Assembly: GCA_000961695.1 (NCBI GenBank)
Contig: LADW01000023.1
Location: 1 to 64,000 of the forward strand
Source of the DNA: Hyphomonadaceae bacterium BRH_c29
Lineage (GTDB): Bacteria; Pseudomonadota; Alphaproteobacteria; Caulobacterales; Hyphomonadaceae
Direction: 5' to 3'
Length of the DNA: 64,000 nucleotides
The translations under genes were made by a program, and so were the position numbers. A model generated the notes under the pieces. It did not search any database. It saw only the letters and a program-made list of their open reading frames with translations, and was not told the DNA's origin. This document shows, in pieces, positions 17,655 to 61,050 of this stretch. Numbering within the stretch: position 1 is the stretch's first letter; the number at the start of each line of letters is the position of its first letter.

Positions 17655-17669
17655 ATTGGTCAAACCAAT
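17655..17669. promoter_or_regulatory. GntR operator 1
   Basis: ATTGGTCAAACCAAT, 6-bp arms, all matching. It lies 79 bases upstream of the M19 peptidase start. Identical in sequence to operator 9 at 60918. Confidence 0.8.
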
Positions 17670-17772
17670 TTACAGATCTGAGATGTCGACAAGTACCCTA
17701 TTGGTGGTCATCTTTTTCCAGATAATGCATCCTTACGCGACCCCGCGACAGGAACTATCGACAGCGCCCCTT

Positions 17773-17787
17773 TTTGGTCGTACCAAT
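17773..17787. promoter_or_regulatory. GntR operator 2
   Basis: TTTGGTCGTACCAAT, 34 bases upstream of the GH78 start. It is centred exactly 118 bp from operator 1, the same spacing as operators 9 and 10. Confidence 0.8.
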
Positions 17788-17820
17788 CTTTCAGGGCGGG
17801 AAGTCGGGAAGAACTGAAGC

Positions 17821-20373
17821 ATGTACAGGCGCGCACATTTTATCTGGACGCCGGATCAGCAGATCGACGAGACGGAAGTGTTCCGGACGCTGGTCCGGGA
17901 CGGACCGAAGGACAGGCGCGATGGCCTCAATCGCTGGGTCTTTTTTCGCCGGGAGTTTTGTCTTGGCAGCGACCCGGTATCGGCAAAGCTAAGTATTACC
18001 GCCGACAGCCGGTACCTACTTTATGTGAACGGAGCCCGAATCGGCCGCGGCCCGCCGAGGTCTGCCGCACACGTCCGGCTCTATGACACATATGATCTCG
18101 GTAGCGTTCTGAAAGAGGGCACGAATGTCATTGCCGCCCTTGTCCATGTCTATGGACGCGACACGGCATGGTATGAAATTGGCCAGCGCTATCCACGATC
18201 CATATTCGGCGACGGCGGTCTCTGGGTTGAGGCGGATGTCGTTCTTGCCGGCGAAACGTTCACTATACTGAGCGATGCGGACTGGAAGTGCCTGACATCG
18301 GATGCCTGGCGAGCAGACGCACCTGTGGCAGGCTGGGGACAGGGTTCTATTGAAGACGTCGATGGCAGACGCCTGCCCGAGGATTGGACACGCGCCGGTT
18401 TTGACGATTCTGAATGGACGGCGGCCCGGGAGATGGTGTGGGAAGGCATCGAGTATGAGCGCGCAATGGGCTGGGGACCTCATGAAGCCTTTCCGACCAT
18501 CAAAGCAAGCGATCTGCCTGAACTATTACAAGAGGTGAACTATCCGGTCCATTTGGAGGGCATCTACGCCGTGACACCGGATGACACGAAGGATGTCGAC
18601 CGGCGCATTTTTGAGGAAACCTTATCGCCAGCGCAAGCAGCAGCGTGTGAAAATGCCACGGCACTGCTCATCGAAGGGGATACCACGCTCATTCGGACGG
18701 TCGGGGACGAGGACACCAGCATACTCGTCGATTTTGGTCTGATTCATACAGGATATCCCTTTGTCGAATTTTTCGCCGAAGGTGGTGAGATCATCGAACT
18801 GGCCGCCTCGGAAAAGATTGCCGGCGACTATCAGGAACCACGCCCGGACCTGCCGCGCATCGAACGCAGGACCCATCTCGACTGCGCTCAGATCTTCCGG
18901 TACCGGGCACGCCCCGGGCTGCAACTTTACGAAAAGTTCGACTGGACGGCGGTACGGTATCTTCAGCTCACGGTCAGAAATGCACCTAAGGGTATCTCGG
19001 TCAGGCGATTGGGTTCGGTTCGGACAGCCTATCCTGCGGGCGAAGCGGGACGGTTTGCCTGCTCAGACCCATTTTTCAACGAGCTCTGGAGGATTGGACG
19101 ATACACGGCCCTGCAGTGCACACACGACGCCTGGTGCGACGGGCCTGGGCGAGAAAAGCGCCAATGGGTTGGCGATGGCCTCGTCCACTATCTCGTCAAC
19201 GTTGCCGCATTCGGATGCGGCACAAACGCCGTAGATCGCCAGTTCCTTCGCGCCGCTGCCGATGCCCAGCGCCCTGACGGACTGCTCCAGATGTTTGCGC
19301 CCGGTGACCATCATCGGGACGGTGTTGCCATCGCTGATTTTCCACTTCACTGGATCTGCGCGGCTGAACAATACCTTCAGTATACAGGTGACATCGATTT
19401 TGTCGCGACACTGTTTCCGGCGGTCCAGAAGGCGCTCCAATGGTATGAGCCGCACCGCGATGGCGACGGGCTTGTCGTAAATCCGCCTCTCTGGCGCTTC
19501 ATCGAATGGGCAGCCCTGGACCGCTCTGGTGCGTCGGCGGCAATGAATGGACTTTATCTTCTCGCCCTGCAAGCTGCGGGCCGGATCGCCGAATCGCTCG
19601 AATATGGCCATGCGCGCAGCACCTATGCCCGCGAAGCGAAACGCGTGACGTCAGCGCTGCAAAATCGGATGTGGGACCCATCAAGGCAGCTCTATGCGGA
19701 CGCCTCAGACCCTGCAACTGGACGTCTATCGAAGCGATATTCCCAGCAGACCAACGCACTGATGGTTCTTGCCGGCGTCGCTCCGGAGGCGCTGCAGAAC
19801 GGCATTCTTTCCCGGATCACTCAGCCCGAACATACGCGCGTCTCCCCCTTGCCTCCTGTCGTCACCGGCGATGCCGACTTCGACGAGGATCGTCATATTG
19901 TCCGTGCCAATACATACTTCGCGCATTTTCTGTACGACGCGCTGATGAAAGCAGGACGTTGCCAGCAAGCACTGCAGTTCATGCGTGACAATCTGGGGCC
20001 GATGCTTTCGGCCGGCGCGGAGACCCTTTGGGAAAGCTATGACCCGAGCGCGAGCCTCTGCCACGCATTTTCAGCTTCGCCAGTCTACCATCTCTCCTCC
20101 GGCGTGCTTGGCGTACGCCCGATATCGCCAGGCTTCAGGACCTTTTCTGTTTGCCCGCTGGTCGGAGATCTGGACTGGGCTGAGGGAACCTTTCCAACGC
20201 CGTCCGGGGGCATTGATGTCAGCTGGAAGCTTGACGGAGACCAGCTGGATATCAGCATAGCTTCACCAGAGGTGCTGACCGGAACTCTCGAAGCGCCCGA
20301 GGGCTGGATTTTGGAAACCGGAGGCGGCGCTTTCAGACAGGCATCGCAGGCCCGGCTAATCCGCCGCAGGTGA
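17821..20373 (+). CDS. GH78-family alpha-L-rhamnosidase
   Basis: The 850-residue protein has an N-terminal beta-sandwich (LLYVNGARIGRGPPRS, as in bacterial rhamnosidase N-domains). A GH78 (alpha/alpha)6-barrel follows from about residue 410, with DGPGREKRQWVGDG, the motif holding the general acid, and later ETLWESYDPSASLCHAFSAS. It would release terminal L-rhamnose from oligosaccharides. No signal peptide is present, so it should act in the cytoplasm after uptake. A GntR operator lies just upstream. The gene converges on the aldo/keto reductase with 6 bases between stops. Confidence 0.85.
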   Translation: MYRRAHFIWTPDQQIDETEVFRTLVRDGPKDRRDGLNRWVFFRREFCLGSDPVSAKLSITADSRYLLYVNGARIGRGPPRSAAHVRLYDTYDLGSVLKEGTNVIAALVHVYGRDTAWYEIGQRYPRSIFGDGGLWVEADVVLAGETFTILSDADWKCLTSDAWRADAPVAGWGQGSIEDVDGRRLPEDWTRAGFDDSEWTAAREMVWEGIEYERAMGWGPHEAFPTIKASDLPELLQEVNYPVHLEGIYAVTPDDTKDVDRRIFEETLSPAQAAACENATALLIEGDTTLIRTVGDEDTSILVDFGLIHTGYPFVEFFAEGGEIIELAASEKIAGDYQEPRPDLPRIERRTHLDCAQIFRYRARPGLQLYEKFDWTAVRYLQLTVRNAPKGISVRRLGSVRTAYPAGEAGRFACSDPFFNELWRIGRYTALQCTHDAWCDGPGREKRQWVGDGLVHYLVNVAAFGCGTNAVDRQFLRAAADAQRPDGLLQMFAPGDHHRDGVAIADFPLHWICAAEQYLQYTGDIDFVATLFPAVQKALQWYEPHRDGDGLVVNPPLWRFIEWAALDRSGASAAMNGLYLLALQAAGRIAESLEYGHARSTYAREAKRVTSALQNRMWDPSRQLYADASDPATGRLSKRYSQQTNALMVLAGVAPEALQNGILSRITQPEHTRVSPLPPVVTGDADFDEDRHIVRANTYFAHFLYDALMKAGRCQQALQFMRDNLGPMLSAGAETLWESYDPSASLCHAFSASPVYHLSSGVLGVRPISPGFRTFSVCPLVGDLDWAEGTFPTPSGGIDVSWKLDGDQLDISIASPEVLTGTLEAPEGWILETGGGAFRQASQARLIRRR

Positions 20374-20379
20374 GGCGGC

Positions 20380-21411
20380 TTATGGTGTCGGGGCTGACGC
20401 GACAATGAGCCCTTCAGCCCGGAGTTCCTCCCAGAATCCCGCAGGGATAGGGGCAACCAGATGCCGGACATTCTCCCGGACCTCTTCGGCACCGGCCGCG
20501 CCAGGGATGACACTGGCCACGATAGGATGGGCCAGGACAAACTGAAGGGCAGCAGCCGGCAGTGCAACATCATGTTTCCGGCAGATCCGAACGATATTGC
20601 GAACCTTACTGATCATGTCTGCAGTGGCATCTGCGTAGTTATATTTGGCTTGGTCGACGGCCCCGGTCGCCAACATGCCGGAAGCGAACGGCGCGCCTAT
20701 CACGACACCAACACCGCGTGCTTCGCATTCCGGAAAACCTGCAAGAAGCGCTGACTGATCCAGCAGTGTATAAGGCATCGCGATCAGCAGGAAATCCACA
20801 TCAAGGTCCATGGCCATCGGTGCGATCATGTCTCCTGTATTTACACCTGCCCCGATCGCGAGAATGTCACCGGCCCGCTTAAGCTCAGTCAGTGCTCTCA
20901 TTCCTCCGGAAGTCAGGTGACGCCAGTGCGCGTCAAAGCCGACCTCATCAGCATGATAGCTGCGGTCCAGGTCATGGATAACCAGCAAATCGATACGATT
21001 GAGGCCGAGCCGCATAAGGCTGTCCTCGAAGGACCGCATCACGCCCTCATAACCGTAATCGAAGCGCCACTCAAATGGCAGCCCGCCGGCCCAGGGCGCC
21101 GAGGAAAATGAAGACGTGTTGGCAGGCCGACGATAGACGCGCCCCACCTTCGTACTCAGCATGAAAGCATCCCGCGGCTTTGATCGTAGAACTTCACCAA
21201 GACGATGCTCGCTCAGCCCGTGCCCATACCAGGGCGCCGTGTCGTAGTATCGGATACCGCCCAGCCATGCCGCCTCAACCGTTCCACGCGCTCGATCGTC
21301 GTCCAGTTTCTGATACAACTCGCCCAGATGGGCGGCGCCGAAACCGAAAGCCGGCACAGAGCAACCGGAACTCCCCAGCCGACGGGCGCCGGCCAAGCCT
21401 GACTTAATCAT
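20380..21411 (-). CDS. Aldo/keto reductase, candidate L-rhamnose/L-fucose 1-dehydrogenase
   Basis: The 343-residue protein carries the AKR catalytic set: Asp and Tyr in YYDTAPWYGHGLSE, Lys in MLSTKVGRVY, His in LLVIHDLD. It resembles the D-threo-aldose/L-fucose dehydrogenase branch, which oxidises the sugar at C1 to the lactone with NAD(P)+. It is divergent from the lactonase gene, with a GntR operator between, so it is the best candidate for the first step of the pathway. Substrate choice between rhamnose and fucose cannot be read from sequence; the dehydratase points to rhamnose. Confidence 0.82.
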   Translation of the reverse strand: MIKSGLAGARRLGSSGCSVPAFGFGAAHLGELYQKLDDDRARGTVEAAWLGGIRYYDTAPWYGHGLSEHRLGEVLRSKPRDAFMLSTKVGRVYRRPANTSSFSSAPWAGGLPFEWRFDYGYEGVMRSFEDSLMRLGLNRIDLLVIHDLDRSYHADEVGFDAHWRHLTSGGMRALTELKRAGDILAIGAGVNTGDMIAPMAMDLDVDFLLIAMPYTLLDQSALLAGFPECEARGVGVVIGAPFASGMLATGAVDQAKYNYADATADMISKVRNIVRICRKHDVALPAAALQFVLAHPIVASVIPGAAGAEEVRENVRHLVAPIPAGFWEELRAEGLIVASAPTP

Positions 21412-21445: not shown

Positions 21446-21460
21446 ATTGGTCCGACCATT
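21446..21460. promoter_or_regulatory. GntR operator 3
   Basis: ATTGGTCCGACCATT in the 73-bp gap between the divergent aldo/keto reductase and lactonase genes, so it could control both. Confidence 0.75.
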
Positions 21461-21484: not shown

Positions 21485-22432
21485 ATGCAGATCATCGATG
21501 CACACCACCACCTTTGGGATCTGTCGACCTGCGCCTATCCGTGGCTGCAGTCCGCCAGTCCAGATGTTGGCTTCCTGGGTGACATTTCGGCGATCCGGAA
21601 AAGCTACACAAGTGCTGACTACCGCTCCGACATTGGCTCGCTCCCGGTGACAGGATCCGTCCATGTCCAGGCCGAACACGATCCTGCCGATCCTGTCGCA
21701 GAAACCCGCTGGCTTCAGGCGCAGGCCGACAGACCTGATGGCGGCGGCTTTCCTCAAGCCATCGTCGCCTTCGCCGATTTCAGCAAAGGCAATGTAGAAG
21801 ATATCCTCGCGCGCCATGCTGAGTTTCGCAATGTGCGCGGCATCCGGCAGATTCTGTCCCATCACCCGGACCCAACCTTCTCGCATGCAGACAGAGAATT
21901 CCTGAAGGATCCGCACTGGTGCGCACGGCTCTCAGCGCTGCGGACGCACAATTTCAGTTTCGACCTGCAGATCTATCCGCATCAGGTGGAAGATGCTCTT
22001 TCGCTCATCGATTCTAACCCAAGCATCCTGTTTGTTATCAACCATGCCCTTGAACCCTGGAGTCAGTCGGACAACGTGATCGCGTGCTGGAGCGATGGCA
22101 TAAAAAAGCTGGCACGGCGGGAAAACACAGTCGTGAAAATATCCGGACTCGGAATGTTCATCCGTCCGTTCAGCGAGGACGCCATTCGCTTCTATGTATT
22201 GGCATTGTTAGACATTTTCGGCGTCAACCGGTGCATGGTTGGCTCCAACTTCCCGGTTGACAAGATGTTCTGTTCTTACGGCGAAATATTCAGCGCATTC
22301 GACCGCATCACGCGGTCGCTGTCGACAACCGAACGCGAAGCGCTGTTTTCAAGGACAGCCGAGCGAACTTACAGACTCAGAGACCGACAGCCGGGCGCCT
22401 CCGAAATAGCCCCCTGCCAGCCAATCGGATGA
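21485..22432 (+). CDS. Amidohydrolase-family sugar lactonase (L-rhamnono/L-fucono-lactonase)
   Basis: The 315-residue protein opens IIDAHHHLWDLSTCAYPWL, the metal motif of the amidohydrolase-2 lactonase group that includes L-fuconolactonase. It continues with VHVQAEHD, GIRQILSHHPDP and near the end CMVGSNFPVDKMFCSYGE, also typical. It would open the aldonolactone made by the sugar dehydrogenase to L-rhamnonate. The MFS transporter gene follows 31 bases later on the same strand, so the two form an operon under operator 3. Confidence 0.86.
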   Translation: MQIIDAHHHLWDLSTCAYPWLQSASPDVGFLGDISAIRKSYTSADYRSDIGSLPVTGSVHVQAEHDPADPVAETRWLQAQADRPDGGGFPQAIVAFADFSKGNVEDILARHAEFRNVRGIRQILSHHPDPTFSHADREFLKDPHWCARLSALRTHNFSFDLQIYPHQVEDALSLIDSNPSILFVINHALEPWSQSDNVIACWSDGIKKLARRENTVVKISGLGMFIRPFSEDAIRFYVLALLDIFGVNRCMVGSNFPVDKMFCSYGEIFSAFDRITRSLSTTEREALFSRTAERTYRLRDRQPGASEIAPCQPIG

Positions 22433-22463
22433 CCTCATTTCAAGAAGGAAGGCGAATACGAAC

Positions 22464-23849
22464 TTGACCAGAAAGATTCCATCCGGGCTGACGACGGGCG
22501 TGAAACTGGCGTGGGCTGTAGGTGAACTACCTGTCGCCGTTTACGTTGTTCTGACGGTCGGGTTTCTGACTTTTTATGCAACCCAGGCGCTGGGCATCGA
22601 GCCATGGCTGGCCGGCGTGGTGCTCCTGATTCCACGCTTGTGGGACGCCTTCACCGATCCCCTGATGGGGGCGATGTCGGACCGCACGCGCAGCCCGATG
22701 GGTCGTCGGCGGCCGTACCTTCTTGCGGGCACCTTTCTACTTTCGGCCAGCGTACTGGCCCTGTTCTTTGCGCCCGCTGAAGCCTCACAGATGCAAAAGG
22801 CTGTCTACCTGCTGGTGACATTCTTCATCGCAAGCACTGCAATCACAATCTATGACGTGCCGTACTCGTCCATGGCGGCGGAGATGAGCGACGATTACAA
22901 TGAGCGCACATCCCTGACCGGCTACAAGATGTTTGGCGCGCGGGTCGGCACTCTTATGATCCTGTTTGGCGTACCGGCGCTTTTTACCTCTCGGGCGGAC
23001 CTCGTAAGCGGCTTCCAACTGGTCGGTCTTGTTTTCGGCGGCATCATCATCCTTACCGGACTGATCGGCGTCCGCTTTACGCGGCACGCGCCTCGGATTG
23101 AACAGACGCCTGCCCCCTTTCGGTTTGTCAGCGAATTTCGGGCTATCACAAGTAACAAGCCGTTTCGGATACTCTGGCTTGCATTCCTTTTCCAGAACCT
23201 GGCGATCGGCATAGCAGCCACCATGGCGCTCTACCTCAACACCATGTCCCTGGGTGTCGGGCCGGCCCTCCTGCCGATAATGATGGGGGCTACCGCCGCG
23301 ATGGCGATGCTTGCCACACCGGTCTGGGTATGGATCGGCCGCAGGATCGGCAAGCGCCCATCCTATATGGTCGCGCTTGTACTTGCGCCAATTTCCTATC
23401 TTCCGATGCTGTTCGTGCCCAGCGGCGCGTTTGCGCTGATCCTGATCCTGTTTCTGATCATCGGCTTCTCGGACGCAGCCAACCAGTTGTTCCCGAATGC
23501 AATGGTCCCGGATACAGTGGAAGTCGATCAGCTCAAAACCGGGGAACGCCGTGAAGGCGCGCTGTTTGGCGCCTGGGCCTTCTGCCGCAAACTTGGCATG
23601 ACGACCGGCGCATTTCTGGCGAGTGTGCTTCTCTCTCTGACCGGCTTTGAACCCGGTTTGACCCAGCAGTCGGAAGCCGTGCTTCGCGGCATTCGAGAAA
23701 TCTATGTCCTCGCGCCGGCTGCCTTGTGGGTTTGCGCACTGCTGACCCTGCTCGCATACCGACTGACTCAGGACGCTTTTGATATCACCAAAGCCAAGAT
23801 CAGAGCCTCCAACTTACCTTCGGACGACCTCGCTGACGACAGAACTTAG
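22464..23849 (+). CDS. MFS/GPH-type sugar transporter
   Basis: The 461-residue membrane protein has about 12 transmembrane segments and the glycoside-pentoside-hexuronide pattern: PRLWDAFTDPLMGAMSDRTR and SPMGRRRPYL in the first loop. It is expected to bring a monosaccharide or small glycoside across the inner membrane with a cation. It starts at TTG 22464 behind AAGGAAGG. The operon with the lactonase and operator 3 suggest rhamnose, rhamnonate or a rhamnoside as cargo. Confidence 0.85.
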   Translation: MTRKIPSGLTTGVKLAWAVGELPVAVYVVLTVGFLTFYATQALGIEPWLAGVVLLIPRLWDAFTDPLMGAMSDRTRSPMGRRRPYLLAGTFLLSASVLALFFAPAEASQMQKAVYLLVTFFIASTAITIYDVPYSSMAAEMSDDYNERTSLTGYKMFGARVGTLMILFGVPALFTSRADLVSGFQLVGLVFGGIIILTGLIGVRFTRHAPRIEQTPAPFRFVSEFRAITSNKPFRILWLAFLFQNLAIGIAATMALYLNTMSLGVGPALLPIMMGATAAMAMLATPVWVWIGRRIGKRPSYMVALVLAPISYLPMLFVPSGAFALILILFLIIGFSDAANQLFPNAMVPDTVEVDQLKTGERREGALFGAWAFCRKLGMTTGAFLASVLLSLTGFEPGLTQQSEAVLRGIREIYVLAPAALWVCALLTLLAYRLTQDAFDITKAKIRASNLPSDDLADDRT

Positions 23850-48106: not shown

Positions 48107-48121
48107 ATTGGTAGGACCAAT
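48107..48121. promoter_or_regulatory. GntR operator 4 (autoregulatory)
   Basis: ATTGGTAGGACCAAT, perfect arms, directly upstream of the ribosome site of the GntR gene. It would control the regulator and the dehydratase-SDR-FAH operon behind it. Confidence 0.82.
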
Positions 48122-48281: not shown

Positions 48282-48296
48282 ACTGGTCCGACCAAT
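48282..48296. promoter_or_regulatory. GntR operator 5
   Basis: ACTGGTCCGACCAAT, 103 bases upstream of the L-lactate dehydrogenase start at 48400, on the divergent side of the GntR gene. Confidence 0.75.
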
Positions 48297-50313: not shown

Positions 50314-50346
50314 GGCTTCGGCCCCTTCCTGCTCGTGGATGCACGC

Positions 50347-50811
50347 TCACTGTCTGCGATACGCGATGGCATCAACCTCGATCAGAATATCGTCGCGGCC
50401 CCAATCGGCACCTGGCACTGTTGTTCGTGCTGGCGGTCTGTCAGGGAAATTCTCTGCAAAGATCCGATCTGTGATCGCCATATCGCCAGATGACTTGAGG
50501 TAGACGGTCACCTTGACCACATCGGACAAAGCAAGGCCTGATGCCTCAAGCGCCGAAGCCAGGTTGTCATAGGCTGTTCGCGCCTGGACATCGATTTCGC
50601 CAGCCGCCAGCCCCTCCCCTTTCCGGTGCGCTATCATTCCGGCAACAAATACAAAATCGCCCGCCTGCACCGCATGTGAATAGGTGCCGAGCCGCTCGAT
50701 CTCATCTGAGAGGATATGCTTCGGAGCCGCCCCATCTGTCGCGCAAGCTGCAGGCAGAAGGAGGGACAGGCTGATGAAGTACCGGAAAACCAGACTTTCT
50801 TCGGCTTTCAT
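50347..50811 (-). CDS. RidA/YjgF-family lipoprotein
   Basis: The 154-residue protein has a hydrophobic signal with lipobox PAACATD, then a Rid domain: VQAGDFVFVAGMIAHRKGEG, VVKVTVYLKSSGDMA, and PPARTTVPGADW with the conserved Arg. It starts 22 bases after the TonB receptor stop and ends 33 bases before the Tat-type Rid gene, so the three are one operon. Two different export routes for two Rid paralogs side by side is striking. Confidence 0.83.
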   Translation of the reverse strand: MKAEESLVFRYFISLSLLLPAACATDGAAPKHILSDEIERLGTYSHAVQAGDFVFVAGMIAHRKGEGLAAGEIDVQARTAYDNLASALEASGLALSDVVKVTVYLKSSGDMAITDRIFAENFPDRPPARTTVPGADWGRDDILIEVDAIAYRRQ

Positions 50812-50833
50812 CAGCCTGTAACTCCATGCCCGA

Positions 50834-53128
50834 TCAGAAGGACTTGCGCAGCGTAACACCCCAGGCTCGCGGATCCCTGGCGGTGACGAGGCCGTTGAAT
50901 GCCTCGAAGCCGACAACGGGCGCGGGTGTCGCCAGACCATTAGCGGTATCGAAGCGACTTGCCTGATTAGGAAGGAACACACCGGTCACAGCAGTATCCT
51001 CCTCAAACAGATTTCTCACCCAGAAAGAAACCGAGAGGTCATCATTCGACAAGCCTGTCCGCAGATTGACCAGAGTCGTATCGCCGACATAGGCATCGGC
51101 GGTCTGCACGGTGCTTTGATCTGAAAAATAGGCCAGATCGCCGCGCGCCATCCACTCCCAGTCGCCAAATGCCGGCTTCTGGTACTGAAGGGACAGATTG
51201 AACTGGTGTTCCGAAACCCATTGCAGAGGCTTGCCGTCCAGCACCGGATCGAGCCCCAGCCCCGCAAGCGCGCCAAATGTATACTTGTCATAGGCGCTGT
51301 CGGTATAGGCATAGCCAGCTGTCAGATCGAGTCCCCTCGCCAAACGCGCACGCGTTTCAAGTTCCACACCGGTGATCGACGTTTCGCCAGCATTGGCATT
51401 CAGGGTCGCAAAGGTCGCACCAAGCGCCCGGACGATCTGGTCGGTCCATTGGATATGGTACACGGCGCCATTGAGGGTCATCCGGCCATCGGCCAGGGTA
51501 GACTTGAAACCTCCTTCATAGGTCCAACTCTCCTCGGGGTCGTATACCCTCTCTGATGGCAGGATCCCGCTACCCGTCACATCGATATTGAAGCCGCCCG
51601 TCTTGGTGGCCTTGGCCGCACTTAGATAGACCATAAGGTCATCATTGTACTGATAGTCTAGTATGAACTTGGGTACGAAGTTCTCAAATTCAGCGCTATC
51701 GGCGAACACGCCGATTGCAGGTGAAAGGGGGCTCTGCTGTGTAGCGACGATGTCTTTGGTTTCATTGGTCCATCGCCCTTCGAAAGTGCCGGTGAGCCGG
51801 TCCGTCAAGTCGTAGCTAAGTGAGCCGAAGAGAGCGTAGCTGGTCGTGGTCTCATCATTTGTGGTGATCGCGCCCGCTGGAAGCAACCCCGCCAAGGGCG
51901 TCACAGACAGAGCCTGAGCAAGCGCAAATGCCCCATCAACAAACGTATCGGTTATGCGACCATCCGAGCTCAGATCATAGTAGTATGCACCGACCATCCA
52001 GCGTAGCGAACCATCCGGAGACGACGCCAGGCGAAGCTCCTGGCTGAATTCGGCGAGGTCTGCTGTTGCCCGGGAGTAGCGGATCGAGCGCGCTTCATAG
52101 TCATTGTCGACATTCTGCTCTGTTTCCAGCTCCACATAACCTGTGATCGATGTGAGCGTCAGGCCACTGTCGAACTCCTTGTCGACGGCCAGTGAGACAG
52201 ATGTGTTCTGCCGATCAAAGCCGCCCGGCGACACGCCATACCCGCTGCCAGGAGCAAGCATCTCTCCGGCATAAAGCTGGAACGCCGGCGGAAGCGGCGC
52301 AGGTGTCGGATTGCCCGGTGCGGCATTGTTCTCGAGAAAGCGCAGCGGACTGTCGCCATTCGCGGTATTTTCGTAGGCAATCCGGAGAACTGCACCAAGC
52401 GAAGCCGACGGGGTCGCCTCAAACGAGGCCGAGAGAACATTTGTTTCGCGTGAATCGAGGTCGCCGCCCGTGAGTTCATTGTCGAAGTACCCGTCACGTC
52501 TATAATGCGATGCACCTCCGCGGAAGTAGAGCTGGTCCTCAACCATCGGAACGCTGATGTTTCCGCGCACTTCCCGAAGACCGTAATCCCCCAGCGTTGT
52601 TTCAACGCCGCCTTCGAGATTCCTGGAAGGCTTGCGAGTGATATAGTTGATGGCGCCTGCGAATGTGTTTCTTCCGTACAGGGCACTTTGTGGCCCCTTC
52701 ACAACCTCGACACGCTCGATGTTGCCCGCAAGCAGGGCATCCATAGCGGCGCGCGATGACTGGTAGACCCCGTCTACGAAAAATCCCACATTGGACTCGC
52801 CGATGGATGTAGATTGACCCCGGACCACCGGAATACTACCCGCGCCCCCGAACAGAGGAGCGAAAGTCAGACCCGGGGTGAGTAGCGCGATATCTTCGAT
52901 GTTGGCGAGACCTGCGTCCTGAATCTCGGCCGCACCAAATGCTGTCACCGCCAGCGGAGCGGACTGGAGGTCCTCCTCGACCTTGCGAGAAGTCACAACG
53001 ATCTTCGCCACACGCAGTTCCTGCGTGTCGGAAGCGGCGTCAGGCTCCTGCGCAATCGCCGGCAGCGGCGCAAGCACAAGCGCCAAAGCGGCACTTGTCA
53101 GATAGCTCTTCCGATTGATGTATCTCAC
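50834..53128 (-). CDS. TonB-dependent receptor (764 residues)
   Basis: GTG start behind GGAGGAAGAA. The signal peptide (SAALALVLAPLPAIAQEP) is followed by a short linker and a plug (VVTSRKVEEDLQSAPLAVTA, GFFVDGVYQSSRA, VEVVKGPQSALYGRNTFAGA) and a barrel ending AWGVTLRKSF. It is probably the uptake port for a rhamnose-containing glycan, since operator 6 lies 66 bases upstream. Its leader and first 27 codons are near-duplicates of those of the receptor at 53379-56330. Confidence 0.9.
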   Translation of the reverse strand: MRYINRKSYLTSAALALVLAPLPAIAQEPDAASDTQELRVAKIVVTSRKVEEDLQSAPLAVTAFGAAEIQDAGLANIEDIALLTPGLTFAPLFGGAGSIPVVRGQSTSIGESNVGFFVDGVYQSSRAAMDALLAGNIERVEVVKGPQSALYGRNTFAGAINYITRKPSRNLEGGVETTLGDYGLREVRGNISVPMVEDQLYFRGGASHYRRDGYFDNELTGGDLDSRETNVLSASFEATPSASLGAVLRIAYENTANGDSPLRFLENNAAPGNPTPAPLPPAFQLYAGEMLAPGSGYGVSPGGFDRQNTSVSLAVDKEFDSGLTLTSITGYVELETEQNVDNDYEARSIRYSRATADLAEFSQELRLASSPDGSLRWMVGAYYYDLSSDGRITDTFVDGAFALAQALSVTPLAGLLPAGAITTNDETTTSYALFGSLSYDLTDRLTGTFEGRWTNETKDIVATQQSPLSPAIGVFADSAEFENFVPKFILDYQYNDDLMVYLSAAKATKTGGFNIDVTGSGILPSERVYDPEESWTYEGGFKSTLADGRMTLNGAVYHIQWTDQIVRALGATFATLNANAGETSITGVELETRARLARGLDLTAGYAYTDSAYDKYTFGALAGLGLDPVLDGKPLQWVSEHQFNLSLQYQKPAFGDWEWMARGDLAYFSDQSTVQTADAYVGDTTLVNLRTGLSNDDLSVSFWVRNLFEEDTAVTGVFLPNQASRFDTANGLATPAPVVGFEAFNGLVTARDPRAWGVTLRKSF

Positions 53129-53193: not shown

Positions 53194-53208
53194 TTTGGCC
53201 CGACCAAT
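53194..53208. promoter_or_regulatory. GntR operator 6
   Basis: TTTGGCCCGACCAAT upstream of the 764-residue TonB receptor. This variant (GGCC in the left arm) is shared by operators 7 and 8, all inside the duplicated leader. Confidence 0.72.
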
Positions 53209-53378: not shown

Positions 53379-56330
53379 CTACCACTCAGCACGGATGCCA
53401 ACGGTGAAGTAGCGACCGTTGAGATCGTAGAGGCCGGGGATTGTTGGATAGCCGACACCGGACAGCGTTGTCGGCATGAGCGGCGGCTCCTGGTCGAACA
53501 AATTGTTGACCGTTGCATAGAGCTGCATGTTTCCACCTTGCGCTTCGAAAGCGTACGCTGCAGAGAGATTCGTGTAAAAGATCTCAGGCACGGTCGGGTC
53601 TCGGAACACGCCGCCGCCTGCCGGGCTGACCTTCAGCATTGAGCCGATATACCGCTCCTGAACGGTGAGCGAAAATGGTCCCTGATCGTAGGTCGCCGAC
53701 AACAGGCCCCGCCATTCTGGCATCCCCGGTACTGAGAGCCCGACAAGTTCGGTGGTCACTCCGCCTGAAACCGAGTCCGCCTCGTCAATGTAACCCGCCA
53801 GCAGCCGGAACGTCACATCGGCATTTCCAACTGGGCGAGTGTAGCTCACGTCGAAATCCACTCCCGAACGATTCTGCACGCTGGCATTGGTCTGCAAGAG
53901 GCTGACTGAAGTTATGTTGTCGACTGACGGGTCTCCAACGATTTGAGCGCAAGCGGTGGCGTCTCCGTTGTTGCAGTCCGTCAGAACCCGCGGCACGGTT
54001 CGCGCAGTGACAATGCCGTCGGTCAGTTCAATGTTGTAATAGTCTATCGAGGCGCTCAGGCCCGGCAGGAAGGACGGCCGGAAAACGGCCCCGACAGTTG
54101 AGGTGTCGCCGATCTCGGGCTGAAGATCAGGGTTGCCCGCGGTAATTGTCGGAATCGTGGGAATCTGATTGCCCGTAAACGGATTGACGGTGAATGCTGC
54201 AAAGCCGGTGGAGGGGCTGGCAAACAACTCGAAGAGATTGGGCGCACGAATGTCGCGCGACCGCGAGGCTCTGAACCTTATGTCGGAGATCGGCTCATAG
54301 CTCACCCCGACCTTCCAGGTGCTGACCTCGCCGCTATTGCTGTAGTCCGTATAGCGAAGCGCCCCGTTGAGTTCGAGATTGGTTGTGATCGGTGCAATCG
54401 TCTCGAAGTAGAGTTCTTGCACCGTGTCGCTAACCTGTTCCTGTTCGCCGACATTGCCTTGTATCCAGCCGCCATAGCGGCACGCCGTTGGCGTCGGGCA
54501 CAACGTCACATTCATTGATCGTCCACGGATGGTAGCGGGATCAATCTGGGAAGTCGCGACGAGATTGGAGGTCCCAGACAATTCGCGGTTGCGCCACTCG
54601 ACGCCAGTCGCGACCGAAACGGGGCCGGCCGGAAGCTCAAACAAAGTACCCTGGAAATTGAGCGCCAGCACCTGCTGAGCGCTCGTCGTCGAGTTTTCAT
54701 TTGTGCCAGTAATATAGTCGAGGGCCGCCTGAGACGGCGCGCCAAAGCCAAACAGGTTTATCGGGACACAGCCGTCATAGATGCTGCCAGGACTGGTCAG
54801 CGTCACTCGGCAAACCGTGCTGCCACTTCCATTGTCGACCGCATCCGCAGCCGCCAGAAGGCGCGCGACATTGACCGCGTTGTGCTCAGCGCCCTCCTGC
54901 TTGGTCTCCCCGTATCCGAGGTAGGCGTCCCAAGTCCAGTCGCCGACGAGTTCGCCTGAGAGTCCACCGGAAATGTCATAGTAGGTGGTGTCGGTTGTAT
55001 TGTAGGAGGCGCCGCCTTCTCGATTTGAGCGCGTCATAAAAAAAGACGTGTACCCGTTCGTGGTCATCGTGCTCTGCAAACCCGCGGGCATGAACGGGTT
55101 GCCGCTGAACATTTCCAAAAGTGTGCCGCTGTTGCCGCTAAAGGCTGGCCATCCGTATTGGTTTTGCGCGCTGTTGAGTGCGCCCGTTAGCTGCACGTAG
55201 CCGTGCAGAGTGGGGGAGAAATCGTAGCCGAAGCGGCCGTAAAGCCGATTGGTTTCTGTTTCACCCAGCGGCTGCATGGCCCCGCTCGGCGAGTAGCCGT
55301 CGCCACCAACCGCGTTGGGTGCGCCGGGAGGCAGGATTGTTCCAAGATTCGTTGGCCCGTATGCACCGCCGGGCAAAAACTGCGTCCCCGCAAGAGGCGC
55401 GGAACCGAAATTGAACGGCAGGCCATTGGAGCTGACGATCAAGCCGCCGGTGGTTCCGGTGTAGAAACGCGTGTCGGCAACATCGTAGTACGGCGAGGCC
55501 AAAGTGCCCGCTCCCGCCAACACCCACATCTGAGCGCTTTGTGGGCGATCTAGCAGGCTCGGAATACCCGCCGCCTCATAGTGCTCGAGGCTGAATATGA
55601 TGTGCCCGCGCCCGTCGAGCACGGACGTCCCGCCAGCTATGCCAGCCTTGATTTGCTCATCGTCGCTGTACCCTGATATGCCATACTGCAAATTGGCGCG
55701 CAGGCCCTCAAACTCGGTGTCCGTGATGTAGTTGACCACTCCGGCGACGGCGTCCGAGCCATAGGCGGCCGAAGCGCCGCCGGTGACGACATCAACACGC
55801 TGCAGCAAAAGCTCAGGTAAAACGTTGGCGTCCACCACACCACTGGAAATGGACGGCGCTAGCCGATTGCTGTTCAGCAGCACGAGCGTTCTATTTGGAC
55901 CCAGTTGGCGAAGCTCGAGGTAGGCACCCGCCGATGCCGTCCCGGCCGCGCAGCAATATGAGCGGCCGCCCAAGGCAGACTGGCCGGTCAAGGACGGCAA
56001 CTGCCTCAGAGCATCGGCGACCGTGGACGGGGTCGTCGTGAGCAATTCCTGTGCACCGACCGCAGTGACCGGCGTTGGTGCCTGGTAGCCCGGATTTTGG
56101 ATGCGCGATCCGGTAACGACGATCTTCGCCACACGCAGGTCCTTCGTGTCGGACGCTGTTTCCGGCTCCTGCGTGTCGGACGCTGTTTCGGGCTCCTGCA
56201 TACCGGACGCTGTTTCCCGCTCCTGCGTACCGGACGTTGTTTCAGGCCCCTGCGCAATGGCGGGCAAGGGCGCGAGTACAAGTGCCAGCGCGGCACTTAG
56301 CAAACAGTTTTTCCGATTGATTTGTCTCAC
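53379..56330 (-). CDS. TonB-dependent receptor (983 residues)
   Basis: GTG start at 56330 behind GGAGGAAAAA, matching the start of the neighbouring receptor. After the signal peptide (SAALALVLAPLPAIAQGP) comes a linker of four 9-residue repeats (ETASDTQEP type), then the plug (VVTGSRIQNPGYQAPTPVTA, LRQLGPNRTLVLLNSNRLAP, VDVVTGGASAAYGSDAVAGV) and a large barrel ending YFTVGIRAEW. It is likely to import a glycan fragment. Operator 7 lies 66 bases upstream. A hairpin follows the gene. Confidence 0.9.
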   Translation of the reverse strand: MRQINRKNCLLSAALALVLAPLPAIAQGPETTSGTQERETASGMQEPETASDTQEPETASDTKDLRVAKIVVTGSRIQNPGYQAPTPVTAVGAQELLTTTPSTVADALRQLPSLTGQSALGGRSYCCAAGTASAGAYLELRQLGPNRTLVLLNSNRLAPSISSGVVDANVLPELLLQRVDVVTGGASAAYGSDAVAGVVNYITDTEFEGLRANLQYGISGYSDDEQIKAGIAGGTSVLDGRGHIIFSLEHYEAAGIPSLLDRPQSAQMWVLAGAGTLASPYYDVADTRFYTGTTGGLIVSSNGLPFNFGSAPLAGTQFLPGGAYGPTNLGTILPPGAPNAVGGDGYSPSGAMQPLGETETNRLYGRFGYDFSPTLHGYVQLTGALNSAQNQYGWPAFSGNSGTLLEMFSGNPFMPAGLQSTMTTNGYTSFFMTRSNREGGASYNTTDTTYYDISGGLSGELVGDWTWDAYLGYGETKQEGAEHNAVNVARLLAAADAVDNGSGSTVCRVTLTSPGSIYDGCVPINLFGFGAPSQAALDYITGTNENSTTSAQQVLALNFQGTLFELPAGPVSVATGVEWRNRELSGTSNLVATSQIDPATIRGRSMNVTLCPTPTACRYGGWIQGNVGEQEQVSDTVQELYFETIAPITTNLELNGALRYTDYSNSGEVSTWKVGVSYEPISDIRFRASRSRDIRAPNLFELFASPSTGFAAFTVNPFTGNQIPTIPTITAGNPDLQPEIGDTSTVGAVFRPSFLPGLSASIDYYNIELTDGIVTARTVPRVLTDCNNGDATACAQIVGDPSVDNITSVSLLQTNASVQNRSGVDFDVSYTRPVGNADVTFRLLAGYIDEADSVSGGVTTELVGLSVPGMPEWRGLLSATYDQGPFSLTVQERYIGSMLKVSPAGGGVFRDPTVPEIFYTNLSAAYAFEAQGGNMQLYATVNNLFDQEPPLMPTTLSGVGYPTIPGLYDLNGRYFTVGIRAEW
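56149..56256 (-). repeat. 27-bp tandem repeat (four copies) in receptor linker
   Basis: Four adjacent 27-base units, each coding a version of ETASDTQEP, sit between the signal peptide and the plug of the 983-residue receptor. The two outer-most units are the more diverged. The other receptor has only one such unit (DAASDTQEL), so the linker has grown by slippage or unequal exchange. Confidence 0.8.
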
Positions 56331-56395: not shown

Positions 56396-56410
56396 ATTGG
56401 CCGGACCAAT
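56396..56410. promoter_or_regulatory. GntR operator 7
   Basis: ATTGGCCGGACCAAT upstream of the 983-residue TonB receptor, at the same distance from the GTG start as operator 6 from its gene. Confidence 0.74.
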
Positions 56411-56823: not shown

Positions 56824-58557
56824 TCATTTGGTTTGTTGCTTAGAGGGCTGAGCGAGCCTGCGCTCAAGTTCCGCGAACTGCATGTCAGAGATTTGCGGAA
56901 ATCCTGGTCGAACAGGTCCGTATTGGTGCAGCATGCTCAGTGAAAAGCCGCGCCCTGCGAAGGCAACGACCAAGTGTTCTCGCAGTCCCGGTAGAACTGT
57001 CTCAACGACTGCCGCCGCTTCGGGGGCGGCGAACAACTCCTTTAATGAGGATCGGACATCGGGAGGACCATCCGGTGTCGGCAGAGTCGACTCCCAGTCC
57101 GCCCAAGGACTACGCTGATAGCTGATTGGCGTTTCCAGTTCCACATAATGACTTAGACCGTCCCGTCGAAGATATTCGTCGGCGGGGAGGAAGTCATCAT
57201 CCAGCAGATCGAGCCATCTTCTCAATTCCTCTTCCAACTGCTCCTGCAGCGACGCCAAGTCCGCCCGACCGCACAGATTTTGCTTCTGATACGGATCATT
57301 TGTATTGTCATAGAGCAGCCACGGACCTGTGATCGACCGCACATACGTATGCGAGCGGGTGCGCACGCCGCGATACTCTGCAAAGCCGTATTGGCGCACT
57401 TGCGCCGGGACAACGTTATTGAGGAAGGCTGACTCGGGGAGATTTCGTACGTTTCCCCGCCAGAGAGCCGTTCCGAAATCGCTACCTTGCACGGAGCCCG
57501 GAATGGGCAGGCCACAAATGCCAAGCAAAGTGGGCATGATATCGGGCGAATTGAGCGGCGCGCCGCACCGCGTTCCGGCTGTGCCGTGTATACGAGGATA
57601 GCGCAGCAGGAACGGGACACGAATGGATTCTTCCCAAGGGACCATCTTGTGGCTCAACCCTTGAGACTCCATCATGTCTCCGTGGTCGGACGTGAAGACA
57701 ACGACGGTGTCTTCAACTTGCCCCGAAGCTTCCACGACGTCTAGAACCCGGGCGAAGCAATCGTCCAATGCAGCCATGTGCGAGTAATAACCGCGCAGGT
57801 CTGCCGTCGCCGCACCCGCCAGTTCATCTGGCACATTCAACCGCAAGGAAATCGGTCGGTCACGAAACATCGCTCGATAGCGCTCTGGTGCAGTGTGGAG
57901 TGGGAAGTGCGGCGGACCCCAGGACAACATCATGAAATACGGTTCGGATTGACCGGCATTCTCTTGGATGAACCTGCACGCATCCTCAGTCTGCGCGAAC
58001 GCGTCATATCCCTCCCAGTATCGCTTCTCCGGATCGTTGTTGTCATAGTAGAATGAGCGATTGTAGTCGTGTGTGGCCTCGGCCGCCTTCCAATAATCGA
58101 AACCGAATCTAAATTCCGACGGAATAAAATCCTCTCGTCGCTCCCAGCGACCGTCCGGGCTGCCGTAAAGATGCCACTTGCCGACATACGCCGTTCGATA
58201 CCCGGCAGTGCGAAACACTTCGCCCAAAGTTGGCGCACTCGGCCGCAGTGGCACGTCATTGATATAGACGCCATTGGTCAGCGGATATTGCCCCGTCACC
58301 AAGCTGGCGCGCGCCGGACAACACACTGAGCATCCCGAAACAGCTTGATCGAAGTTCACGCTCTCGCGAGCGAAGCGATCAAACGATGGCGTTTCAGCGT
58401 TGAGGTCTCCTTCGTAGCCCATCGACTGACCTCTCCATTGATCGGCCATTACAAGCAACACATTCGGGCGGCGATCTTTGGGCGGCGACGCGCAACCCAA
58501 GGCGGCGATCGACAAAGACGTCAAAGCAAACTGATTGAGGGCCCTTCGAGTTATCAT
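56824..58557 (-). CDS. S1-type sulfatase lipoprotein
   Basis: The 577-residue protein has a signal with lipobox AALGCASP. RPNVLLVMADQWRGQS opens the sulfatase fold. SVCCPARASLVTGQYP carries the C-x-P-x-R formylglycine motif, with Cys79 the residue to be converted; VVFTSDHGDMMES holds metal ligands. It would remove sulfate esters from a glycan in the periplasm and needs a formylglycine-generating enzyme, not seen in this window. AGGAG precedes the ATG. Upstream is a TonB-receptor leader remnant with operator 8, which probably drives this gene. Confidence 0.9.
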   Translation of the reverse strand: MITRRALNQFALTSLSIAALGCASPPKDRRPNVLLVMADQWRGQSMGYEGDLNAETPSFDRFARESVNFDQAVSGCSVCCPARASLVTGQYPLTNGVYINDVPLRPSAPTLGEVFRTAGYRTAYVGKWHLYGSPDGRWERREDFIPSEFRFGFDYWKAAEATHDYNRSFYYDNNDPEKRYWEGYDAFAQTEDACRFIQENAGQSEPYFMMLSWGPPHFPLHTAPERYRAMFRDRPISLRLNVPDELAGAATADLRGYYSHMAALDDCFARVLDVVEASGQVEDTVVVFTSDHGDMMESQGLSHKMVPWEESIRVPFLLRYPRIHGTAGTRCGAPLNSPDIMPTLLGICGLPIPGSVQGSDFGTALWRGNVRNLPESAFLNNVVPAQVRQYGFAEYRGVRTRSHTYVRSITGPWLLYDNTNDPYQKQNLCGRADLASLQEQLEEELRRWLDLLDDDFLPADEYLRRDGLSHYVELETPISYQRSPWADWESTLPTPDGPPDVRSSLKELFAAPEAAAVVETVLPGLREHLVVAFAGRGFSLSMLHQYGPVRPGFPQISDMQFAELERRLAQPSKQQTK

Positions 58558-58573: not shown

Positions 58574-58753
58574 CTAATTCGAATGAGCCTGTGTGGTTTC
58601 CGCGTTCCGAGGCGTGAGCCTCACATCACCGTCAACGACACAGCTTAGCCCCTCGCCCTCCGTGCGGTTCGCCTGCGCGATCGCCGGTAACGGGGCAGGC
58701 ACAAGTACCAAAGCAGCACTTGTCAGATAGCTCTTCCGATTGATGTGTCTCAC
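58574..58753 (-). pseudogene. TonB-receptor leader remnant (signal peptide ORF)
   Basis: A 59-codon frame starts at GTG 58753 and reads RHINRKSYLTSAALVLVPAP and PAIAQ, the same signal peptide as both receptors. It then runs into unrelated sequence and stops 16 bases before the sulfatase ATG. Its upstream leader and operator 8 are also copied. The receptor body is gone. It may still act as a short translated leader for the sulfatase. Confidence 0.78.
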
Positions 58754-58818: not shown

Positions 58819-58833
58819 ATTGGCCCGACCAAT
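58819..58833. promoter_or_regulatory. GntR operator 8
   Basis: ATTGGCCCGACCAAT in the third copy of the duplicated receptor leader, now upstream of the signal-peptide remnant and sulfatase. Confidence 0.76.
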
Positions 58834-58896: not shown

Positions 58897-59841
58897 TTAA
58901 TGAGCGCCCAAACGCAAAAAGGCGGCCGCATCTGCTACCCCTTGCCGAGCGCAACTGAAGCGTTCCTGAAACATCGTGAACCCGTGAATGGCGCCCTCAT
59001 AGACCTGCAGATCGACCTTCACGCCAGCCGCCTCCATCAGGTCCGCAAGCCGGGTACTGTCATTGAAAAGGGGATCGACCGTCGGCGCTGAAATAAATGT
59101 GCGCGGCAATCCCTGGAAGTTCCCGAACAGAGGGGAAGCCTCAGGCTTGCGCCAGTTCGATTCTTCAGGACAGTAGTGCCGACGGAACCGGTACATCGCT
59201 TCCGTTTCCAAGAAATATCCGCTTTTGAGCAGATCCATCGACCGACCCGAGTAGGTCAGATCGAACGCGCCATAGAACAACAACAATCCGGCCAATTGAA
59301 TTCCGGCATCGCGCAGAGCCAGCGCTGCGACAAGAGCGAGATTTGCACCGGCGGAAGCTCCGCCCAGAAAGATCCTGTCCGGATCAATGCCCAGCTCCCC
59401 TGCCCGGTTCAGTGCGTCCCGGACACAGGCGATACAGTCATCTCCCGGCCCCGGAAAAGGATGCTCCGGAGCAAGGACATAATCGACTGACAGCACACAT
59501 ATGCCGCTCTCGTCGACAATATGGCGCAGTTTCCGGTCCTCGGTTTCCAGATTCCCGATGACCCAGCCGCCGCCATGAAAGTAGATCATGCAGGCTGACG
59601 GCGCATTCGAGGCGACAGGCTTGTAGAGGCGCGCCGGCCGGGGGCCGAAAGCACCGGCGAGCAAAGTGTCCCTCACCTCCCCGACAGGAGGCCCCCCCTT
59701 GTTCAGGAGTGCGAACATTTCATCCATCATCGCCCTTACGCTCGATGGCGAGACTTCATCCATGTTCGGTGGCGGGGGCTGACCCTCCTTTTCCTTCAGG
59801 AACGTCAGCACATCTTGCTGAATGTATGGCTCCGTCTCCAT
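58897..59841 (-). CDS. Alpha/beta hydrolase (HSL-type esterase)
   Basis: The 314-residue protein has ACMIYFHGGGWVIGNLETED, the oxyanion HGGG motif of the hormone-sensitive-lipase group, FLGGASAGANLALVAALAL with the nucleophile Ser, FISAPTVDPLFND for Asp, and GAIHGFTMF for His. No signal peptide is seen. It may remove acyl groups from sugars after uptake. The ATG at 59841 follows AGGAGG. It lies 57 bases after the PhyH gene stop in the same direction, so both probably answer to operator 9. Confidence 0.87.
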   Translation of the reverse strand: METEPYIQQDVLTFLKEKEGQPPPPNMDEVSPSSVRAMMDEMFALLNKGGPPVGEVRDTLLAGAFGPRPARLYKPVASNAPSACMIYFHGGGWVIGNLETEDRKLRHIVDESGICVLSVDYVLAPEHPFPGPGDDCIACVRDALNRAGELGIDPDRIFLGGASAGANLALVAALALRDAGIQLAGLLLFYGAFDLTYSGRSMDLLKSGYFLETEAMYRFRRHYCPEESNWRKPEASPLFGNFQGLPRTFISAPTVDPLFNDSTRLADLMEAAGVKVDLQVYEGAIHGFTMFQERFSCARQGVADAAAFLRLGAH

Positions 59842-59898
59842 TGAATACCTCCTCTCAAAGCCCGCCCATCATGAACACCGTTTCACCGCCCGGACCGA

Positions 59899-60840
59899 CT
59901 ACGCGATAGCCCGGCGCCAAGCCGTCGCATCCCATCGCGGCCATCGCGTTTGCGTCCTCGCCAAAGTTACCTCGGTCCAGAACCGATCTCCCGGCAGCGG
60001 CACATTCAGGCAGGCGAGTTGCTCCGGACTGGCGTGCTCGAAGAAATGCCTCCAGGGATTGTCATCGGCCGAATACAATCTTGACCATTCGCGCGGAACG
60101 CTGCTCGGCCAAGCGACGAAATCCACGGCGTCATTTTCCGCCGCCTTATAGCTTGCGAACAAGACATAGCGCCTGCCCTCAGGCGCAGTGAGGTTGGTGG
60201 CGCGATGATAGATGTCGGACGAATAGGCCAACACCGTACCACTGGGGCCCGCCCCGGAACGCTCAATCCGCCGAAGCGCGTCCTGCTGTGAAACGTCAGG
60301 CATTCCAGGCCTCATCGGCCCGCAGATCTCATCGCCCTCTCCTCGGGTCACATAGCGGATGGAGCCGTGCTCATCCGTTACATCGGTGGCATATATCGAG
60401 AAGTTCACTGTGCGCTGGCATGGGTCATCCCCGATCGTCGTCAGCGTATGGTTGTAATAGTCCATATGAAAGGGCTGGTCGAAATCCGCTTGCCCAGTAA
60501 ACTTCGCCCAGCTGATGCTCTGATAAAGCCTGACATCCTCCGTTCCAAGCGCCTCACGCGCGAAGGCAATCAGTGCGGGGTGTAGTGCGAGCAGGTTGAG
60601 TGCAGGAGAACAATCGAACGGCATCATCCGCGTGTGCTCAAACTGCACGCGCGAAGGCATTCGGACGTCCTTGCCTTTGGTGTTTTCGACGGCCGCGTGG
60701 GGTTGGGGTTGGCCGCCGGAGAACAAAATTCCGAAGTCGTCCAGCACAGGAACTATTTCCGATTTAGTGAAGAAGCCGGGCATCAGCGCGGCGCCATCTG
60801 ACCTCCAGCGGCTGAGATCTGAAGCGTTGTATCGATTCAC
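59899..60840 (-). CDS. Phytanoyl-CoA dioxygenase (PhyH)-family protein
   Basis: The 313-residue protein has the Fe(II)/2-oxoglutarate layout of PhyH: FDQPFHMDYYNHTL with the HxD pair, SSDIYHRATNLTAPEGRRYV with the distal His and the Arg for 2-oxoglutarate. Such enzymes hydroxylate or demethylate small molecules. GTG at 60840 is chosen since GGGAG lies seven bases upstream; longer frames cross operator 9. Membership in the rhamnose regulon suggests a modified sugar as substrate, for instance removal of an O-methyl group; this is speculation. Confidence 0.82.
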   Translation of the reverse strand: MNRYNASDLSRWRSDGAALMPGFFTKSEIVPVLDDFGILFSGGQPQPHAAVENTKGKDVRMPSRVQFEHTRMMPFDCSPALNLLALHPALIAFAREALGTEDVRLYQSISWAKFTGQADFDQPFHMDYYNHTLTTIGDDPCQRTVNFSIYATDVTDEHGSIRYVTRGEGDEICGPMRPGMPDVSQQDALRRIERSGAGPSGTVLAYSSDIYHRATNLTAPEGRRYVLFASYKAAENDAVDFVAWPSSVPREWSRLYSADDNPWRHFFEHASPEQLACLNVPLPGDRFWTEVTLARTQTRWPRWDATAWRRAIA

Positions 60841-60917
60841 TCGCGGCTCCCGTCTCAACAGAAAAACATCCAACACGCTTTGCGGCAATGCATACCCCAA
60901 TCTACACAGCCCCGAGT

Positions 60918-60932
60918 ATTGGTCAAACCAAT
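60918..60932. promoter_or_regulatory. GntR operator 9
   Basis: ATTGGTCAAACCAAT, 78 bases upstream of the PhyH start. Sequence and placement match operator 1 upstream of the M19 peptidase. Confidence 0.8.
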
Positions 60933-61035
60933 TTTCGGTTTGTGTCGCCGGCAAGTGTCCTGGATGACAATCATCCTGTTCAGGACAATGCATGTCCTTG
61001 CGTCTGGTTTTCCGGCACTATCGACAGCTCGCTAT

Positions 61036-61050
61036 TTTGGTCCTACCAAT
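61036..61050. promoter_or_regulatory. GntR operator 10
   Basis: TTTGGTCCTACCAAT, 89 bases upstream of the aldo/keto reductase start and centred 118 bp from operator 9. Confidence 0.8.

Follow-up and report, generated by a model that had tools for sequence, protein, structure and literature searches.

A predicted GntR/FadR-subfamily regulon at an L-rhamnose locus of a Hyphomonadaceae bacterium

Background

The closest described relatives of the system discussed here are the regulons of FadR-subfamily GntR proteins such as LldR, PdhR, ExuR, DgoR and GlcC. According to the main text of PMC4494728, the operators of this subfamily follow the consensus TKGT/ACMA, with two or three bases between GT and AC (three in the regulons just named). 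A second group consists of the bacterial L-rhamnose regulons. These are mostly local and join rhamnose catabolism with the use of rhamnosides, and in the main text of PMC3870299 their regulators are of the AraC, DeoR or LacI families. Here we discuss ten palindromes in a stretch of 64,000 nucleotides from Hyphomonadaceae bacterium BRH_c29 (assembly GCA_000961695.1, contig LADW01000023.1, positions 1 to 64,000), called the window below, together with the single FadR-type GntR gene that lies among them. An earlier note on this DNA had predicted that the palindromes define one regulon.

With the FadR-subfamily regulons, as the main text of PMC4494728 presents them, the window has in common a regulator made of a winged helix-turn-helix and an FCD domain, the form and the spacing of the operator, and a site before the regulator's own gene. 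It differs in that its GntR gene stands at an L-rhamnose locus; the string 'rhamn' has no occurrence in that main text. With the L-rhamnose regulons it shares the local arrangement and the joining of catabolism with rhamnoside use. The regulator is of another family, however, and 'GntR' has no occurrence in the main text of PMC3870299. In the part of PMC5507952 available to us, GntR regulators are described for arabinose and sugar acids, and an uncharacterised Rhodobacteraceae rhamnose locus with a transporter and a mutarotase appears with no regulator named. The part of PMC7057948 available to us, a paper found for IclR and L-rhamnose, holds nothing on a regulator of this pathway. Among the titles and abstract openings that we found, none mentions control of L-rhamnose catabolism by a GntR protein; supplements, subscription papers and RegPrecise were outside the scope of this search.

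Results

All ten 15-base palindromes of the earlier note were found again, starting at 17655, 17773, 21446, 48107, 48282, 53194, 56396, 58819, 60918 and 61036; we refer to them as S1 to S10. The claim that they share one form holds strictly for eight, which match TTGGYCNNACCAA exactly on one strand. The sites at 21446 (TTGGTCCGACCAT) and 48282 (CTGGTCCGACCAA) each have one mismatch to it. Exact matches to TTGGYCNNACCAA would be expected in the window with a mean of 0.06 (largest number 2 in 100 dinucleotide shuffles). The half-sites are spaced GT-NNN-AC, or GC-NNN-AC in the TTGGCC sites, and all ten fit the FadR-subfamily operator form as given in the main text of PMC4494728. In a weight matrix the ten score 20.5-23.0 against 13.0 for the next best 15-mer of the window, their high scores being by construction, as the matrix was built from them.

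The whole assembly (3,700,219 bases in 96 contigs) contains 12 exact 13-base sites, eight of them in the window and four elsewhere, all four within long open reading frames. As a test of whether the motif is just as frequent in coding DNA of this genome, this count does not refute the regulon. If W is added on both sides, nine exact sites remain genome-wide and eight of these are in the window. Since so few exact sites lie outside, and all of them in long reading frames, the regulon looks confined to this locus; the assembly is 94.59% complete, and a further site on missing DNA is possible.

The earlier note placed no site inside a coding region. This is correct once likely start codons are chosen, when all ten are intergenic, but the longest mechanical reading frames of gntR (GTG 48178), PhyH (60993) and the second aldo/keto reductase (60992) cover the sites at 48107, 60918 and 61036. 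The likely starts are ATG 48085 for gntR, GTG 56330 for TonB receptor 2, a position near 60783 for PhyH, ATG 61139 for the second aldo/keto reductase and ATG 48400 for lactate dehydrogenase. They were chosen by our own judgement from ribosome-site-like sequence and domain starts, and that of gntR is also backed by an ortholog described below.

By position, and with operons grouped by spacing and strand and domains taken from Pfam, each predicted operator can be assigned targets. S1 (17655..17669, + strand) precedes a peptidase M19 gene (16428..17576, -; likely start 17576 or 17567). S2 (17773..17787, +) precedes a GH78-type alpha-L-rhamnosidase gene (17821..20373, +) with Pfam rhamnosidase domains. 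S3 (21446..21460, +) lies between two divergent units: an aldo/keto reductase (AKR) gene (20380..21411, -), and an Amidohydro_2 candidate lactonase followed by a GPH symporter of the MFS type (21485..23849, +). S4 (48107..48121, -) precedes the operon of gntR, rhmD, an SDR gene and a FAH-family gene, and S5 (48282..48296, +) an FMN-dependent L-lactate dehydrogenase gene (48400..49569, +). S6 (53194..53208, +) stands before TonB receptor 1 and two Rid-family genes (49726..53128, -), S7 (56396..56410, +) before TonB receptor 2 (53379..56330, -) and S8 (58819..58833, +) before a sulfatase gene (56824..58557, -). The set is completed by S9 (60918..60932, +) before PhyH and an alpha/beta-hydrolase, the esterase of this operon (58897..60783, -), and S10 (61036..61050, +) before the second aldo/keto reductase, AKR2 (61139..62200, +).

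The proposed binder is a GntR protein of the FadR/FCD subfamily (47351..48085, -; 244 amino acids), whose longer reading frame matches Pfam PF00392 (GntR) at 4.1e-18 and PF07729 (FCD) at 8.1e-30. It is the only FadR-type GntR gene of the window and, as the earlier note had it, a site lies directly upstream: the 13-base core of S4 is 22 bases from the ATG. Among the NCBIfam models for NanR, LldR, PdhR, GlcC, ExuR, UxuR and FadR the protein reaches the cut-off of none, the best scores being 137.1 bits for NanR (cut-off 260) and 123.8 for LldR (cut-off 311). Residues D161, H165, H209 and H231 fit the metal site of the FCD domain, in line with PDB 6az6 and 2di3, and we take them to bind the metal there.

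A genome of the same family but of a different genus (G021, 60 kb examined) encodes an ortholog of this regulator with 65% identity. At E <= 1e-30 two of the 105 genomes of the family have the GntR protein, the window's own and G021; it is in none of 41 other genomes of the same genus. With the best six or seven candidates per genome scored, it is found at E <= 1e-45 in three of 398 genomes of the order sample (the third, G553, being alone among the 60 genomes of its own family), and in the class sample only in the own genome (1 of 385). A contig scan with the GntR protein also gave four distant relatives (27-33% identity), which were left out of footprinting.

Thirteen window proteins have counterparts in G021 at 55-81% identity (RhmD 81%), all within about 18 kb. 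The 60 kb contain eight sites scoring at least 14.5, a threshold that was fixed only after the G021 scores had been seen; the matrix behind it was itself derived from the ten sites of the window. Chance would give a mean of 0.18 (maximum 2, 500 mononucleotide shuffles) or of 0.35 (maximum 3, 60 sequences of a dinucleotide model). Six of the eight stand before counterparts of window targets: gntR (71015, as S4), TonB receptor 1 (67456, as S6), the MFS and esterase genes, lactonase and AKR (80450, as S3), and two between GH78 and M19 (84115 and 84189, as S2 and S1). The other two adjoin each other before another TonB receptor. No G021 counterpart of S5 was seen. The MFS and esterase genes are in other operons in the window, yet they are behind a site in both genomes.

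Even details recur in both genomes. TTTGACC is found on the M19 side and NTACCAA ends the GH78-side site; the half-site at AKR deviates in the same way, to ATGGTC, and TTGAC follows the TonB receptor 1 operator after two bases. When the operators are masked, the GH78 promoters of the window and G021 give a local alignment score of 21 against a shuffle maximum of 28, which is not significant.

The GntR protein might be an LldR-type lactate sensor, with LldR-like operators and L-lactate, the end product, as its signal. LldR is among its nearest curated families, and PDB 2di3, Corynebacterium LldR according to the main text of PMC4494728, is among its structural relatives; the same text gives LldR sites the same three-base spacing, and the L-lactate dehydrogenase gene carries a site. 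But the LldR score is far under its cut-off, gntR heads the rhmD operon rather than a lactate gene, and the lactate dehydrogenase query has no listed match in the 60 kb of G021. On balance we find a lactate sensor unlikely.

Is the motif a property of the pathway rather than of this regulator? RhmD was found at E <= 1e-90 in 39 of 398 order-sample genomes (best four candidates per genome scored). Once G021 and the own genome are set aside, 37 genomes with 38 loci remain as a control set, each locus taken as a stretch of 17-19 kb. Three IclR queries found an IclR-like gene in 36 of these loci (not in L094 and L121), and relatives of the window GntR occur in only one (L088, with two matches of 34-38%, of which the one closer to rhmD is some 4.8 kb away). 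A side observation concerns L121, from genome G779: here rhmD is accompanied by an AKR (53%) and a lactonase (38%), with neither IclR nor GntR detected. Of 17 plasmid records with RhmD matches, six were examined. The five annotated ones among them all carry an IclR gene near rhmD; the sixth (L052), a record without annotation, gave no IclR or GntR match.

In the 44 rhmD loci of both sets there is a single site in 845,982 bp. In these data the motif accompanies this GntR and not the pathway. The earlier prediction of a single regulon under the window's GntR gains strong support, at the level of sequence, from this near-absence and from the recurrence of the sites in G021 with rearranged operons. 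The IclR-associated loci on plasmids of Sphingomonas, Sphingobium, Caulobacter and Acidisoma are otherwise like the window, having rhmD with SDR and amidohydrolase genes (5/5) and FAH (4/5), and in the order sample lactate dehydrogenase is often near. They differ in that the neighbour of rhmD is an IclR gene and a second SDR is usual, where the window has the GntR gene and aldo/keto reductases, and in that the motif is nearly absent.

Another FCD regulator of the same genome could read the sites instead. The genome has three FCD-domain genes, one just under the family cut-off, and FadR-type motifs are alike (PMC4494728, main text). Only the window's gene is on this contig, though, and in the stretches examined around the other two the matrix finds best scores of 7.3 and 7.2, against 20.5-23.0 for the window sites. 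As the sites also accompany the window's regulator in G021, and rhmD loci that lack this regulator hardly contain them, we regard a second reader as very improbable.

It is highly probable, in our opinion, that the GntR protein at 47351-48085 is a local repressor and that all ten palindromes are its operators. Repression is favoured because most of the ten sites overlap promoter-like elements or border directly on them. TYGACR is found exactly ten bases before the operator at three places in each genome: in the window at GH78 (TCGACA, S2), gntR (TTGACG, S4) and AKR2 (TCGACA, S10), and in G021 at the gntR and GH78 genes and at one receptor. Given a spacing of 17 bases, the right half of the operator (TACCAA) then falls on the -10 region in five of the six cases. 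At M19 (on the - strand) and PhyH, the operator itself provides a TTGACC -35-like element. At AKR it runs into TATAAT, with no good -35 partner found.

The receptor and sulfatase sites S6-S8 are arranged in another way. The operator is directly upstream of a TTGACA-like element (two bases away at S6) and does not cover it. This could suit activation, and the protein might activate from the same sites instead of repressing. At S1, S2, S3, S4, S9 and S10, however, the overlap with -35- or -10-like elements, matches of modest score as they are, means that binding should block polymerase. Activation is thus a doubtful alternative, and steric repression is the simplest reading.

If the GntR protein is a repressor, the regulon might work as follows. 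Without substrate, a GntR dimer on each operator, most of them overlapping or abutting a promoter-like -35 or -10 element, would block transcription. The repressed set would be a regulon for rhamnoside use, comprising the rhamnosidase, uptake and the oxidation of L-rhamnose to the 2-keto-3-deoxy acid, followed by cleavage to pyruvate and L-lactate and by oxidation of the lactate. The signal would be a carboxylate intermediate, with L-rhamnonate or 2-keto-3-deoxy-L-rhamnonate the likeliest, and its binding to the metal-centred FCD domain would take the repressor off the DNA. Through the site in front of its own gene the regulator would limit itself. We infer the binding and its direction from the sites, and we propose such a ligand because the residues of the FCD metal site are present.

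The locus is best read as a non-phosphorylating L-rhamnose route to pyruvate and L-lactate. L-rhamnonate dehydratase, RhmD (46115..47320, -), is identified by NCBIfam NF011968 (495.7 bits, cut-off 393), and its best PDB matches are 3fxg and 2p0i. We take these structures to be fungal, from Gibberella. The window protein scores higher against them (526 bits) than against its relatives in the order other than that of G021 (at most 457 bits), which may place it in a separate subfamily. The lactate dehydrogenase exceeds the cut-off of NF008398 (505.7 bits against 376) and is below that of the stricter LldD model NF033901 (441.5 against 550).

The roles of four other proteins are what we infer from families and position. 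An SDR dehydrogenase (45358..46170, -) is, by Pfam and its place in the operon, the candidate 2-keto-3-deoxy-L-rhamnonate dehydrogenase. The FAH-family hydrolase (44494..45348, -) is the candidate 2,4-diketo-3-deoxy-L-rhamnonate hydrolase: its score of 415.8 bits to NF053535 is below the curated cut-off of 500, though its best PDB match is 8gsr, an L-2,4-diketo-3-deoxyrhamnonate hydrolase. The AKR, with a Pfam family assignment and no PDB match at 1e-30, is the candidate L-rhamnose dehydrogenase. The candidate lactonase reaches 93.5 bits to an L-fucono-1,5-lactonase model with a cut-off of 400 and has a weak PDB match, 4dlf.

How did the sites arise? The promoters of TonB receptor 1, TonB receptor 2 and the sulfatase share homologous sequence along roughly 175-200 bases, with pairwise scores of 188, 113 and 207 against shuffle maxima of 26, 26 and 27. 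The sites at 53194, 56396 and 58819 are one triplicated promoter cassette. The third copy, with S8, is accompanied by a 59-codon relic of the 5' end of a TonB receptor that keeps the receptors' signal peptide (58574..58753, -, coordinates by arithmetic), between S8 and the sulfatase. S1-S2 (17.6 kb) and S9-S10 (60.9 kb) are pairs with the same 118-bp spacing, and of the 105 bases inside each pair 53 are identical without gaps, against 44 at the best other position of the window and at most 44 in 2000 shuffles. With the operators masked, a gapped local alignment of these promoters scores 26 against a shuffle maximum of 27, which is not significant. Common ancestry of the two pairs is probable on this evidence.

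This raises the question of whether the palindromes are merely a by-product of repeat copying. The triplicated cassette of S6-S8 and the inner bases kept by the two pairs would agree with this. Yet in the two pairs the operators have stayed whole around 105 bp of just 50% identity, by eye S3, S4 and S5 stand in sequences that seem unrelated, and the sites are conserved across genera. We therefore give this explanation hardly any credence. What seems to us an even bet is a combined history: in this order the L-rhamnonate pathway changed its regulator family, GntR/FCD taking the place of IclR, and the regulon grew by the copying of operator-promoter cassettes, one of them from a decapitated TonB-receptor copy that now drives the sulfatase.

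Several observations weigh against a single GntR-repressed rhamnose regulon, among them the late choice of the G021 threshold, the placing of S6-S8, the modest scores of the promoter elements, which are consensus matches, and the low scores of the FAH and lactonase proteins. The ten sites go back to some five or six control regions and thus do not have ten independent origins. With one mismatch allowed, ATTGGTCNNACCAAT has ten forward-strand matches each in G033 and G080, which do not carry the GntR protein, and 11 in the own genome; genomes of the same genus have 0-5. By a raw count, which alone proves nothing, the own genome does not stand out in the family, nor is the motif exclusive to this regulator. 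That G033 and G080 have such matches is expected of a motif common to the FadR subfamily.

Finally, the third genome, G553, has a GntR of 49% identity and only two sites above 14.5. One lies before gntR (111200, a weaker counterpart of S4 scoring 15.0) and the other inside a receptor reading frame. In its 60 kb no RhmD ortholog was found (best match 26%), and the other promoters inspected are without the motif.

More distant GntR loci can be found on plasmids, where three of 11 GntR matches were examined. The rhamnose-mutarotase loci of Shinella and Chelativorans are like the window in having a related GntR (40% and 39%) beside sugar-acid-type genes and a site in a divergent promoter (scores 18.3 in Shinella and 12.4 in Chelativorans). 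They are unlike it in their ABC or TRAP transport and in RhmD matches of just 29% and 26%, and no TonB receptor or GH78 is annotated in these stretches. The third match, in Croceicoccus, is a glucuronate-type locus.

Some features of the window touch the regulon less directly. The Rid-family proteins (49726-50982) and the M19 peptidase (16428-17576) recur in all three GntR loci (window, G021 and G553). A glycan module at 23891-44109, with GH30, GH3, GH2, halogenase, TonB receptor, cupin and SASA esterase genes, splits genes that are close together in G021. The 18-kb block there leaves no room for this 20-kb module, as judged from a list of reading frames; in G021 the search for it went no further than this.

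The earlier note had the module controlled separately. It has no operator scoring at least 14.5 and is absent from the G021 block, which agrees with that claim, but an alternative control was not found. There is no regulator among its scanned proteins, and a search of 24-44 kb for a shared operator gave no inverted repeat (arms of 7-8, gap of at most 7) and no more than nine 10-mers in common, some of which overlap. At the left end of the window (1252-5719), S26 signal peptidase, DUF736 and ParB-domain genes suggest an integrative element or a plasmid. A search of the window for tRNA genes found none.

Discussion

In kind the system is ordinary. It appears, with good support, to be a further local regulon of a FadR-subfamily GntR protein, on a pathway for which the literature we found has no GntR regulator. 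The fresh points are the difference in regulator family from the IclR loci and the growth of the regulon by promoter copying.

For a likely route from rhamnosides to lactate, a likely regulator, its operator and a set of targets can now be named. The odd members of the set are the M19 peptidase, the Rid proteins, PhyH and the sulfatase, and co-regulation makes their functions testable. Beyond this organism, the locus offers a case of one pathway apparently under different regulator families within one bacterial order, and a case in which a regulon may have grown through the copying of promoters.

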